Assembly: GCF_016900375.1 (NCBI RefSeq)
Contig: NZ_JACJKB010000015.1
Span: 1 to 59,298, forward strand
Length of the DNA stretch: 59,298 nucleotides
Direction of reading: 5' to 3'
Origin: Collinsella tanakaei
GTDB lineage: Bacteria > Actinomycetota > Coriobacteriia > Coriobacteriales > Coriobacteriaceae
The translations under genes were made by a program, and so were the position numbers. The notes under the pieces are model-generated. The model did no database searches and was not told where the DNA came from. It saw only the letters and a program-made list of their open reading frames with translations. Below are positions 13,252 to 23,631 of this stretch, piece by piece. Every line of letters begins with the position of its first letter. The stretch's first letter is position 1.

Positions 13252-13282
13252 CGACAAGATGGTGCCAGGTCCAAACTTGTCG
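13252..13282 (+). repeat. 31-bp palindrome A1 (RAYT-associated REP-like)
   Basis: Arms CGACAAG and CTTGTCG enclose a 17-base core containing GGTGCCAGGTCC. It is one of four related palindromes around the transposase gene at 13701-14462; A1 and A2 share one orientation. Confidence 0.8.
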
Positions 13283-13681: not shown

Positions 13682-13712
13682 CGACAAGATGGGGCCAGAT
13701 TCATTCTTGTCG
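13682..13712 (+). repeat. 31-bp palindrome A2, overlapping the end of the RAYT gene
   Basis: Arms CGACAAG/CTTGTCG enclose a core with ATGGGGCCAG. The transposase stop codon (13701-13703) lies inside it, so the element and gene end are physically joined. Confidence 0.8.
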
Positions 13713-14462
13713 CTTCGACAGGGCGCGCCTGATGGACGAGACGCCTATCCCCGTAAGCATCTCGATCTGCCTCCACGACAATCCGATTGCCCGCAGCTTT
13801 GCAAGCGCCTCCACGCGCTCCTCCTGAGGCATCGATTTGATTTCCAGCGGCGAGATTTCTCCAAGGGCATCCTTAGCCGCCTTCCGGACATCCCTATCGG
13901 AAATCCGTCTCCCTGTTCGGAGGTAATTCACGGCATGCGCCCCGCTGCGACTGAATTCCAGAAAGCCTTCCACGCCCCCAAGCATCTCAAGCAAGACGGA
14001 CACATCCGAAATGGCAAACGGGCTGTTGCCGACATATTCCCCGAAGCTGTTCCACTCGTATTCATCAGCAGCGGCAATTCCCGCGCGCACGGGATTATCG
14101 TGGACATATCGCGCTGTTTGCAGCAGCTGCTCCTCCGACGTTATGGCAACGCTGTGGAACCTTCCTTGATAGACCGACCCCACATGGCCGGTCTTTGCAT
14201 TGAAATGCCGCGCGTAGGCACCCGCGAAGTCGTGAACCATATCGCTCAGCTTCGCCTGGGGATCATCGATCACAACGTGAACATGGTTGCTCATCAGGCA
14301 CCACACGATAATGCGCCCGCCTGCGCTGCGAACGGACTCCGCCATCAGATGAAGATACTTCCTCCGATCCGCATCGTCCTCGAACAGGATCTGCCGTCCG
14401 TTTCCCCGCAGCGTCACGTGGTAGTAGCCTGTGGGAGAAATCTCGCGCTGAACCCTCGACAT
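13701..14462 (-). CDS. REP-associated tyrosine transposase (RAYT, Y1/HUH family)
   Basis: The 253-residue protein opens with SPTGYYHVTLRGN, then has the metal-binding HUH motif in NHVHVVIDD and the catalytic Tyr in RYVHDNPVRAG, the standard Y1_Tnp arrangement. A C-terminal helix-turn-helix (SWRQIEMLTGIGVSSIRRAL) is a common RAYT addition. These enzymes nick single-stranded hairpins and are tied to REP palindromes rather than carried on classical insertion sequences. Two 31-bp palindromes in one orientation lie at or beyond its 3' end and two in the opposite orientation lie upstream. All catalytic residues are present. The gene is less GC-rich than its neighbours, which suggests acquisition. 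Confidence 0.9.
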   Translation of the reverse strand: MSRVQREISPTGYYHVTLRGNGRQILFEDDADRRKYLHLMAESVRSAGGRIIVWCLMSNHVHVVIDDPQAKLSDMVHDFAGAYARHFNAKTGHVGSVYQGRFHSVAITSEEQLLQTARYVHDNPVRAGIAAADEYEWNSFGEYVGNSPFAISDVSVLLEMLGGVEGFLEFSRSGAHAVNYLRTGRRISDRDVRKAAKDALGEISPLEIKSMPQEERVEALAKLRAIGLSWRQIEMLTGIGVSSIRRALSKRQE

Positions 14463-21623: not shown

Positions 21624-22310
21624 TTAGGCCTCGAGCTCAGCCTTGAACCAGCTCGTGAGGCTCGTGGGATGCGTGATGGCAGTTCCCACGACGACCGCCC
21701 AGGCGCCGGCATCGATAGCGGCGCGGGCCTCGGCGGGCGTGTGCACACGGCCCTCGCAGACCACGGGGAAGCCGGGGAACTCCTCGGCCGCCTGGCGCAG
21801 CAGCGGCAGGTCAGGGCCATCGGCCATCGTGCAGTCGATGGCGGCCACGCCGTGGCTGAGCGTCGTGGAAACGATGTCGAAACCGAGGTCGACCGCACGG
21901 CGGATATCGTCGATGGTCATGCAGTCGGCCATGGTGAGCACGCCCTCCGCCTTCAGCGGCTTGAGCGTATCGGCAACCGTCTTGCCGTCGGGACGCGGAC
22001 GGTCGGTGGCGTCGATGGCCACGATATCGGCACCGGCGGACACGCAGGCGCGCGCATGGCGAAGCGTCGGGGTGATGTAGACGCCCTCATGGCCGTCCTT
22101 CCACAGGCCGATGACAGGGATCTCGCAGCGCCCCTTGATGGCGGCGATGTCGGAGAGACCCTGGCAGCGGATGGCGGCGGCGCCACCGAGCTCGCAGGCG
22201 CGAGACATCTGGGCCATCGTCTCGGGATGGCGCAGCGGCTCGCCGGGATACGCCTGCACGCTCACGATGAGCTTGCCCTTAAGCGATTGGATCAACGGAT
22301 CGATAGCCAT
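21624..22310 (-). CDS. nanE: N-acetylmannosamine-6-phosphate 2-epimerase
   Basis: The 228-residue TIM barrel starts with KGKLIVSVQAYPGEPLR and has AIRCQG, the barrel strand DIVAIDAT and the phosphate site VVVGTAITHP, all typical of NanE. It converts ManNAc-6-P to GlcNAc-6-P in sialic acid breakdown. GGAGG lies five bases before the start. Two large covarying hairpin elements lie between it and the upstream kinase gene, so it may be uncoupled from or regulated apart from that gene. Confidence 0.93.
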   Translation of the reverse strand: MAIDPLIQSLKGKLIVSVQAYPGEPLRHPETMAQMSRACELGGAAAIRCQGLSDIAAIKGRCEIPVIGLWKDGHEGVYITPTLRHARACVSAGADIVAIDATDRPRPDGKTVADTLKPLKAEGVLTMADCMTIDDIRRAVDLGFDIVSTTLSHGVAAIDCTMADGPDLPLLRQAAEEFPGFPVVCEGRVHTPAEARAAIDAGAWAVVVGTAITHPTSLTSWFKAELEA

Positions 22311-22408
22311 ATCGTCCTCCTAGCAAACAAGAAATCATGAAGTCGAGGAAACCGAATTCGACGAATCCAACAAAGACGACGTCTTCCCCGGAAGCTCAAC
22401 GACGGAGA

Positions 22409-22510
22409 CGGCTTTTCCAGGTGCCCGAGATTCGCCTGAAAGAGGAGGGCGCACGCCTAGCGTGCGGCGCCCGACGATTGAAGGCGAAGGTCGGGTGCCT
22501 GGGAAAGCCG
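22409..22510 (+). repeat. Structured hairpin element, copy 1
   Basis: Imperfect 29-base arms (22409-22437 and 22482-22510) enclose conserved 9-base internal loops GAAAGAGGA and GACGATTGA and an inner stem-loop. The repeat unit spacing to copy 2 is 129 bases. In plus-strand RNA, three of the imperfect positions become G-U pairs; in minus-strand RNA they would be mismatches. It may be a structured RNA or a mobile hairpin. See the findings for the covariation. Confidence 0.85.
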
Positions 22511-22537
22511 CAGGGATCGAAAGGCCTACAACGGAGA

Positions 22538-22638
22538 CGGCTTTTCCAGGTGCCGCAGATTGCCCTGAAAGAGGAGGGCATAGGCCTTCGCGCCATGCCC
22601 GACGATTGAAGGGCAAGGTGCGGTGCCTGGGAAAGCCG
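22538..22638 (+). repeat. Structured hairpin element, copy 2
   Basis: It has the same design as copy 1: 29-base arms at 22538-22566 and 22610-22638, identical internal loops GAAAGAGGA and GACGATTGA, and a different inner stem (GGGCAT/ATGCCC). Both copies are followed by AGGGATC. All four arm differences from copy 1 are compensated on the other arm. Confidence 0.85.
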
Positions 22639-22644
22639 AAGGGA

Positions 22645-23601
22645 TCAGTCAACCTCAATATAAGCGGAGCGCATAAAGTGCTCCGCCGCGCCGATGAGCG
22701 GCGCGTCGCCGCCCAGCTCACCGCCGATGATCGGGGTCTTCGCCACGGGAGGCATCGCCTGCTCGGCAAAGGCCGCGGCCACGGCATCCGACCAGTCGGG
22801 GCCGCACTGGGCCACCGAGCCGGACAGGATCACGCAGGCGGGGTCGAGCATGTTGCACATGCTGCCCATGACCTCGCCGAGCGCGCGGCCGGCGCGCTCC
22901 TCGGCGCCCTTGGCCGCCTCGTCGCCCGCAGCCGCGCGGCGATCGATCTCGGCGCCATCCATCGGCTTGCCGTCGTAGGTCTCGTCTCCCCCGCGGCGGA
23001 TGTACTCGCGGATGATGCCCGGGCCAGCGCCGATCGGCTCGAGATGGGCCGTCGCGCCGCAGGAGCAGGGCACGCCGACAGCCGCCGGGCAGCAGACATG
23101 GCCGATGTGGCCCGCCTCGTCGTGAGCGCCGAGCATGATGTGCCCGTGCTCGACGAATGCTCCGCCGATACCGGTGCCGACAGCCACCACCAGGCAGCTC
23201 GAGGCATCGCGGCCGCCGCCCCAACGCGCCTCGCCCAGCGCATGGGCGTGCACGTCGTTCAGGACGCGGCACGGAAGCCCGCAGGCAGCCGTGACCTCGG
23301 CGGCAAGATGTGTGCCGCCCCAGCCAGGCATGAGCTCGTTGGCAAAGGTGATGTCACCCGTGCGGGGATCGACCACACCTGCGGAGGAGATGCCCACGCC
23401 GACCGGCGCCTCATCGGCGCGCTCGATGGCCGCGCGCACGGCGGCGATCACGCGCGAGAGCACGTGCTCGCCGCCCTGGGCGGCCTCGGTGGGCATCTTC
23501 TCGACCTTGTCTGCGCGCGGAGCGCCATCGCCCAAGGTCACGATTCCACAGGCGATCTTGGTTCCCCCGATATCGACGGCAACGATAGTCGTGCGCTCCA
23601 T
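22645..23601 (-). CDS. nanK: ROK-family sugar kinase, probable N-acetylmannosamine kinase
   Basis: The 318-residue protein has the ROK ATP site DIGGTKIACGIV, GVGISSAGVV and the catalytic region with ND and GTGIGGAFVEHG. The ROK zinc motif is unusual: after GHIGH comes CSCGATAHLE, where the family normally has CxCGxxGCxE, so His stands where the last Cys is expected. Context (nanE, nanA-like, Sat-like importer) favours ManNAc kinase over glucokinase; sequence alone cannot decide. Start 23601 is chosen for AAGGAG; a GTG at 23616 is the alternative. Confidence 0.75.
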   Translation of the reverse strand: MERTTIVAVDIGGTKIACGIVTLGDGAPRADKVEKMPTEAAQGGEHVLSRVIAAVRAAIERADEAPVGVGISSAGVVDPRTGDITFANELMPGWGGTHLAAEVTAACGLPCRVLNDVHAHALGEARWGGGRDASSCLVVAVGTGIGGAFVEHGHIMLGAHDEAGHIGHVCCPAAVGVPCSCGATAHLEPIGAGPGIIREYIRRGGDETYDGKPMDGAEIDRRAAAGDEAAKGAEERAGRALGEVMGSMCNMLDPACVILSGSVAQCGPDWSDAVAAAFAEQAMPPVAKTPIIGGELGGDAPLIGAAEHFMRSAYIEVD

Positions 23602-23631
23602 GGCAGACTCCTTCACTCGAATTTAGAACTC

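Follow-up and report, generated by a model that had tools for sequence, protein, structure and literature searches.

A dispersed hairpin repeat of conserved shape and variable stem sequence, mostly located behind stop codons in Coriobacteriia

The attC sites of integrons are long imperfect hairpins behind stop codons, in which the shape is kept, the sequence varies, and the folding strand is antisense to the gene; their consensus boxes R'' and R' are RYYYAAC and GTTRRRY. For insertion sequences of the IS200/IS605 type, the active strands show a preference for the lagging-strand template. One account describes REPs as dispersed palindromes that mostly separate genes of co-directional or convergent orientation and sit beside the 3' end of the upstream one, to which they sometimes supply the stop codon (PMC3733652). 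Collinsella-1 (RF01700), an RNA class of Rfam, is listed for Actinobacteria and the human gut (PMC2864571). Among the titles and abstract openings listed from the open-licence literature, no paper on the hairpin repeat reported here was found.

The window analyzed here is a stretch of 59,298 nucleotides from Collinsella tanakaei (contig NZ_JACJKB010000015.1). Two tandem hairpins were located between two sialic-acid genes (Table 1). For the kinase, the best NCBIfam model was ROK glucokinase, and models of N-acetylmannosamine kinase matched as well, all below their cut-offs. The element overlaps the last codons of the kinase gene, and its minus strand is the mRNA sense; the nanE-type gene comes next beyond the element and has the same orientation as the kinase gene. 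The stop codon of the kinase belongs to a unit end that is common to the window and another locus.

Table 1. Positions of the two hairpins, their unit, and the neighboring genes in the window.
Feature	Position	Strand	Remarks
Hairpin copy 1 (HP1, CGAGA type)	22409..22510	+	GA strand is the plus strand; 102 bases
Hairpin copy 2 (HP1, GCAGA type)	22538..22638	+	Architecture as in copy 1, inner-stem sequence different; 101 bases
Two-copy unit	22399..22655	+	Near-identical to the unit of contig C55 (ungapped comparison)
Conserved 5' flank of the hairpin, CAACGGAGA	22529..22537	+	Common to many of the 24 aligned copies (alignment A1)
Unit end, GGGATCAGTCAACCT	22641..22655	+	Includes, in complement, the stop codon of the kinase (22645-22647)
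ROK-family kinase gene (nanK-type by context)	22645..23616	-	Stop inside the unit end
nanE-type gene, putative N-acetylmannosamine-6-phosphate 2-epimerase	21624..22310	-	NF002231 above its cut-off

Copy 1 is composed of a 20-bp outer stem, a 2x2 GA/GG mismatch, a 7-bp stem, a GA/GA mismatch segment, and a 6+3-bp inner stem. As stated in the original prediction, comparison of the 29-base left arms, CGGCTTTTCCAGGTGCCCGAGATTCGCCT and CGGCTTTTCCAGGTGCCGCAGATTGCCCT, shows four differences between the copies, at positions 18, 19, 25, and 26; the same four partners are changed in the right arm, restoring the pairing. The inner stem differs in sequence under the same architecture, and at positions 8, 14, and 15 both copies have G-T pairs on the plus strand and A-C pairs on the minus strand. 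The 9-base segments GAAAGAGGA and GACGATTGA were indeed identical in both copies, but the internal loop formed by them is not simply open, as it contains paired steps: in the plus-strand fold, GA-AA-GA-G-GA stands opposite GA-C-GA-TT-GA, giving three GA/GA mismatch steps spaced by two and one Watson-Crick pairs. The 2x2 mismatch at arm positions 21-22 (GA opposite GG) is an addition to that description. In other copies of the same genome, the middle of the segment is replaced by AAGCC/GGCTT.

Fold z-scores of the two copies were -8.6 and -9.3 for the plus strand and -7.4 and -7.0 for the minus strand, and 0 of 200 shuffles folded as well in each case. A repeat finder listed no inverted repeat at the two hairpins, since its minimum of 9 exactly complementary bases exceeds the longest exact run of copy 1, which is 7. 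As for an intrinsic terminator, in which a T run follows the hairpin on the transcribed strand, no terminator-like site was detected on either strand of 22250-22750 in a scan limited to loops of 3-8 bases (a weak test, 0.6 being expected by chance), and no T run was seen by eye after the window hairpins.

In this genome, 27 matches were obtained by blastn, and a covariance model built from 24 of its copies gave 36 matches, seven of which are opposite-strand images of stronger ones, leaving 29 places. Two of these, lying where contigs C14 and C20 end, share an overlap of 96 identical bases and probably represent a single copy, and the copy number is 28-29. The model matched 39 of the 43 genomes of the genus. 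In the class, matches were found in 104 of 296 sampled genomes and 30 of 125 genera (E <= 0.001), a count that may err both ways: a few genomes have only one weak match, and inspection by eye showed the element at rplX-rplE in G068, which had been scored as empty. Other genomes scored as empty include G022, G024, G026, and G042. A stringent pattern of the second subfamily, searched in contigs of 84,980 species, found 116 stretches, and 80 of 80 among the matches listed were Coriobacteriia by name. On these sequence searches, the repeat appears so far only in Coriobacteriia.

The unit measures ~125 bp in the window subfamily and ~170 bp in the other subfamily, which carries a second small hairpin, HP2. 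A second bacterial family, referred to as f3, whose named relatives include Gordonibacter, Eggerthella, Slackia, and Adlercreutzia, showed the same architecture with largely different sequence. In mRNA sense, the f3 unit consists of the stop codon, HP2, the linker YCGACGCTGCG, HP1, CTCGCTGAC, and a short tail. The HP2-bearing form was also present in some copies of the window's genome (L051, L054), the window copies being of the form without HP2. The idea that HP2 serves these genomes as a general terminator was rejected, the pattern having occurred once in forty 20-kb stretches plus the window, beside an element linker. A third small hairpin, different in sequence and similar in position, was observed downstream of the f3 unit in mRNA sense (L256, L260).

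The copies keep their shape and not their sequence. In the alignment of 24 copies, 92.5% of the cells were paired, and two-sided changes were found in 25 of 39 pairs; on four of five measures, none of 500 shuffles showed covariation as high, on the remaining one (further pair types) 16 of them did, and pairing fell to 37-43% when the partners were slid. In f3, 25 of 35 consensus pairs had two-sided changes among 42 copies. While the stems vary, the 2x2 mismatch was purine-only in 24/24 (alignment A1) and 36/42 (alignment A4) copies, and the G.A segments persist among the copies of this genome. The hairpins had been proposed to be a selected structure, for which a model search of Coriobacteriia should return many matches. 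The two-family covariance-model analysis agrees with this proposal: matches were many, further covariation and similar internal segments were seen, and homologues that keep the arms were found to keep the pairing as well.

Matched arms might also come about without selection, through hairpin-templated quasi-palindrome correction combined with the exchange of whole inner modules between copies. The two-copy unit of contig C55 (copies at 74,709-74,826 and 74,838-74,954) is relevant here, since it and the 257-bp unit of the window differ in blocks (TTCGCCT/AGGCGAA vs TTGGGGT/ACCCCAA) and are otherwise near-identical, several of the internal differences being C-G to G-C changes with a match in the opposite arm; tandem copies, which occur at several loci, would likewise suit such a process. 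Correction would, however, erase mismatches, and the persistence of the purine 2x2 mismatch and of the G.A segments therefore counts against it, as do the compensatory changes between orthologous copies at the purC site, although some A-C cells occur there too. We regard this explanation as very unlikely.

Placement was determined for 114 elements of five genomes, each tandem copy being counted, using a simple codon-usage gene caller (with a Collinsella codon model also for f3); 27 of 29 places in G000, the genome of the window, 27 of 28 matches in G037, 20 of 20 in G002, and 20 of 26 in each of G105 and G123 were placed. An upstream gene was assigned to 111 elements; 105 of these genes run in the same direction as the TC strand and 6 run against it. 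A co-directional stop codon lay within -15 to +60 bases of the element in 80 of 114, and the distances fall into two clusters per group, 17-18 and 31-37 for f3, -11 to 14 and 33-38 for the window's genus; many of the elements outside this range were second tandem copies or further off. Overlap with a called gene by more than 50 bases was found for seven of the 114, six in the TC direction and one antisense (L203), the last being counted among the 105 through a more distant gene. The TC strand is the mRNA sense, the GA strand is antisense, and the copies are located mostly just 3' of stop codons. The upstream genes were ordinary chromosomal ones: a scan of ten included purC, rpoZ, rplX, thiD, and a moaB-like gene, and a set of sixty covered diverse families; for these sixty, no transposase was present among 25 of 91 Pfam families. 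Enrichment of TAG stop codons was considered and rejected (46/80 at elements; in 20-kb samples from four genomes, 42-51% of genes).

This placement is also what would be expected if the TC strand were transcribed as a 3' untranslated or intercistronic mRNA element, acting in message protection, readthrough attenuation, or unequal operon expression, as proposed for REPs. Besides the co-directional upstream genes, the next gene ran in the same direction in 86 of 113 cases, even at rplX-rplE, and some sites are conserved between genera. The transcribed strand, on the other hand, carries pyrimidine-pyrimidine and A.C mismatches, the tolerance of wobble pairs in f3 is on the other strand, and the element is gained and lost between close relatives. 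An mRNA element is a possible but unlikely reading.

Regarding the strand that folds, the GA (plus) strand keeps tandem U.G/G.U and G.A pairs, whereas the other strand would have A.C and pyrimidine mismatches. The wobble cells of f3 comprised 127 GU vs 14 AC in all and 70 vs 14 outside the wobble-consensus pairs, and the 24 copies of this genome had 20 GU vs 17 AC when the conserved tandem wobble was left out, counts in which rows are related and cells are not independent events. Judged by these alignments, the GA strand seems favored, clearly in f3 (70 vs 14) and weakly in this genome (20 vs 17), where the preference comes only through the fixed wobble pairs.

The original prediction had suggested a plus-strand RNA as the folded molecule. 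Its preference for the plus strand finds clear support in f3 and weak support in this genome, and RNA is one candidate form of the folded strand. G-U rather than A-C cells in f3 and the conservation of the tandem U.G/G.U and G.A segments would suit a structured GA-strand RNA antisense to the host gene, but single-stranded DNA would accommodate G.T and G.A pairs too. Further, both neighboring genes usually run opposite to a GA transcript, which would therefore usually need its own promoter, and a sigma-70-type consensus scan of 22250-22750, a weak test with a chance expectation of 0.1, gave no site on either strand; the conserved 5' flank is short as well, ~12-25 bases by eye. Such an RNA is, in our judgment, decidedly unlikely.

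Near-identical copies were found at unlinked sites. In G123, copies at 1.284 and 1.831 Mb, 547 kb apart, have the same HP1 sequence and differ across the ~170-bp unit by a single mismatch in HP2 and another close to the 3' end, their flanks are unrelated, and no target-site duplication was seen by eye in this pair, the one inspected. The similarity between the window and C55 units likewise stops abruptly on both sides. Presence and absence also vary between relatives. The nan site is filled in G000 and in G029, where both copies are present and the inner stem of the second differs in sequence yet still pairs, and by eye no element is present in the orthologous spacers of G016, G038, and G017. 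At rplX-rplE, the element was seen by eye in 3 of 23 readable loci (G123, G303, G068), and HP1 was absent from the close relatives G302 (99% identical in the query), G176, and G109; G176 has kept HP2 and part of the linker there. These observations support the earlier suggestion of a mobile hairpin. Gene conversion of entire units among resident copies could produce the same appearance as copying, and sites common to different genera (rplX, and purC, which is shared by G105, G109, and G123 of two genera) fit slow turnover or function better than active spread.

At the rplX-rplE site, a conserved segment, GGGACGCAGGGTCGGAAATCCTGCGTTTAATTCATCGAAAGG, was additionally observed before rplE in many of the loci shown (L267, L271, L272, and others). 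It is possibly a ribosomal-protein leader RNA; no Rfam match was obtained for L272, L267, and L281.

The presumed dispersing enzyme is not in general a Y1 transposase, because Y1_Tnp, present in this genome, was lacking in half (5 of 10) of the other element-bearing genomes examined and no element was found in 21 loci around Y1_Tnp genes (~1.5 kb on each side); RAYT mobilization as a general requirement was ruled out on the same grounds. The possibility that the hairpin is only the end of a known IS had also been raised, and none was identified in a test against Y1 transposases only. A phage origin was rejected, as no phage match was obtained; two viral contigs that fit a short pattern contain no model match, and a second pattern found none. 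A plasmid origin was rejected too, the one 'plasmid' match being an 899,693-bp record of Collinsella aerofaciens.

The window itself contains a Y1 (RAYT-type) transposase gene at 13701-14462 on the minus strand, matching the NCBIfam model of the REP-associated tyrosine transposase with 76.1 bits (cut-off 80) and flanked by GACAAG...CTTGTC palindromes near 13253, 13683, 14480, and 14574. It is apparently an ordinary RAYT/REP set without association to the hairpin family. Other short palindromes, of the GACAAG...CTTGTC and CATGACAGTTAGGACGG types, adjoin several hairpin elements of genome G000 (L004, L007, L018, L019, L021, L025).

Orientation on the replichores was determined in ten genomes, three with rounded lengths, taking the best DnaA match as the origin and the opposite point as the terminus; the DnaA match was below the family cut-off in G037, G002, G001, and G023, but the GC skew reverses close to this match in G037 and some 0.1-0.2 Mb beyond it in G002. 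From origin to terminus, the GA strand lay on the leading-strand template in 175 of 196 copies, counted among the matches listed (215 matches tallied; 2 opposite-strand images dropped), and in 60 of 60 in G105, G123, and G161 together. A polar chromosome or replication signal, for which one orientation is required on each replichore, would produce this pattern. In samples of four genomes, however, 67-72% of genes and 75-82% of the co-directional pairs with room for an element were on the leading strand, and the excess over 78% was moderate when copies were treated as independent (p = 6e-5 overall; 5e-7 for 60/60). Moreover, among the five exceptions examined, three of the four in G002 follow a lagging-strand gene and not the replichore, and the remaining one in G002 and the one in G037 break both the gene and the replichore rules. 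Orientation follows the replichore largely because such genes are leading-strand; gene direction seems to be the main rule, and the polar signal is most improbable.

Taken as a whole, the element may be a REP-like, structure-selected, dispersing extragenic hairpin repeat whose folded GA strand, antisense to the gene, is recognized, a reading to which we give an even chance. The unit would spread by being copied whole, and we infer that the copying is enzymatic and that the folded GA strand is the recognized form, most simply as single-stranded DNA handled by some enzyme. The element would then stay behind genes, often between genes resembling one operon, because a hairpin there may be tolerated or mildly useful. 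Its replichore polarity would follow mainly from gene orientation and would perhaps be sharpened by the loss of copies whose more stable strand is on the lagging-strand template. The weak GU/AC asymmetry in the set of this genome speaks against this reading. A narrower version, in which a non-Y1 enzyme recognizes the GA strand as single-stranded DNA on the leading-strand template, antisense to the gene, by its tandem sheared G.A pairs and copies the element behind stops independently of stem sequence, is tentative and on balance unlikely.

The repeat reaches some thirty copies per genome, is strongly structured and free in stem sequence, and lies behind genes as central as purC, rpoZ, and rplX; its hosts are human gut bacteria. 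With one shape, many sequences per genome, and a near-strict orientation, it provides a natural series for asking whether a bacterial repeat can be recognized by shape alone. It further allows one to ask which enzyme disperses such repeats without RAYT and whether extragenic hairpins tune expression inside operons.

Membership in a known RNA class, also considered in the original prediction, was not supported. Scans with Rfam 15 gave no family for the repeat: neither the window, nor the region of the element, nor any of the 20 plus 3 homologous loci had a match within an element at gathering score. Collinsella-1, named there for comparison, differs from the element, as it was absent from the window above the cut-off, from the element region at E <= 10, and from the 20 homologous loci at E <= 0.5. 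Weak matches to MIR949, mir-8286, mir-23, P33, RFPL3-AS1_2, and mir-3140 were far below gathering scores, and a Ref55 match above its score in L068 (1250-1303) was outside the element (1501-1617).

The element hairpins resemble attC sites in that they are long, imperfect, and behind stop codons, keep their shape, and have an antisense GA strand. Unlike attC sites, they are dispersed rather than arranged in cassette arrays, and R''/R' boxes were found at the ends of 0 of 114 elements, so an attC assignment was rejected. Likeness to MITEs and PATEs of the IS200/IS605 type consists in small non-coding units that occupy unlinked places, end sharply in the two pairs inspected, and fold strand-specifically in f3. 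They differ in that the folding strand of the element is on the leading-strand template, opposite to the IS200/IS605 preference. A search for Y1_Tnp located no parent transposase for the element.

Finally, the element shares with the hairpins of REPs (GTAG and CGTC repeats), BIMEs, and REPINs, as described in PMC3733652, a dispersed, extragenic position near gene 3' ends. In contrast to REPs, its unit is ~100-170 bases rather than 20-40, and its stems are hypervariable with covariation, the mismatch segments being kept and one orientation relative to the gene being held; in the genomes tested it is without Y1/RAYT association. The unpaired GTAG/CGTC tag at the palindrome end of REPs was not seen by eye directly at the ends of the window hairpins, and in f3 a CGTC occurs within the linker, at a distance of some bases from the hairpin. 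The element is accordingly filed as a variant of the extragenic palindromic repeats and not as a REP.
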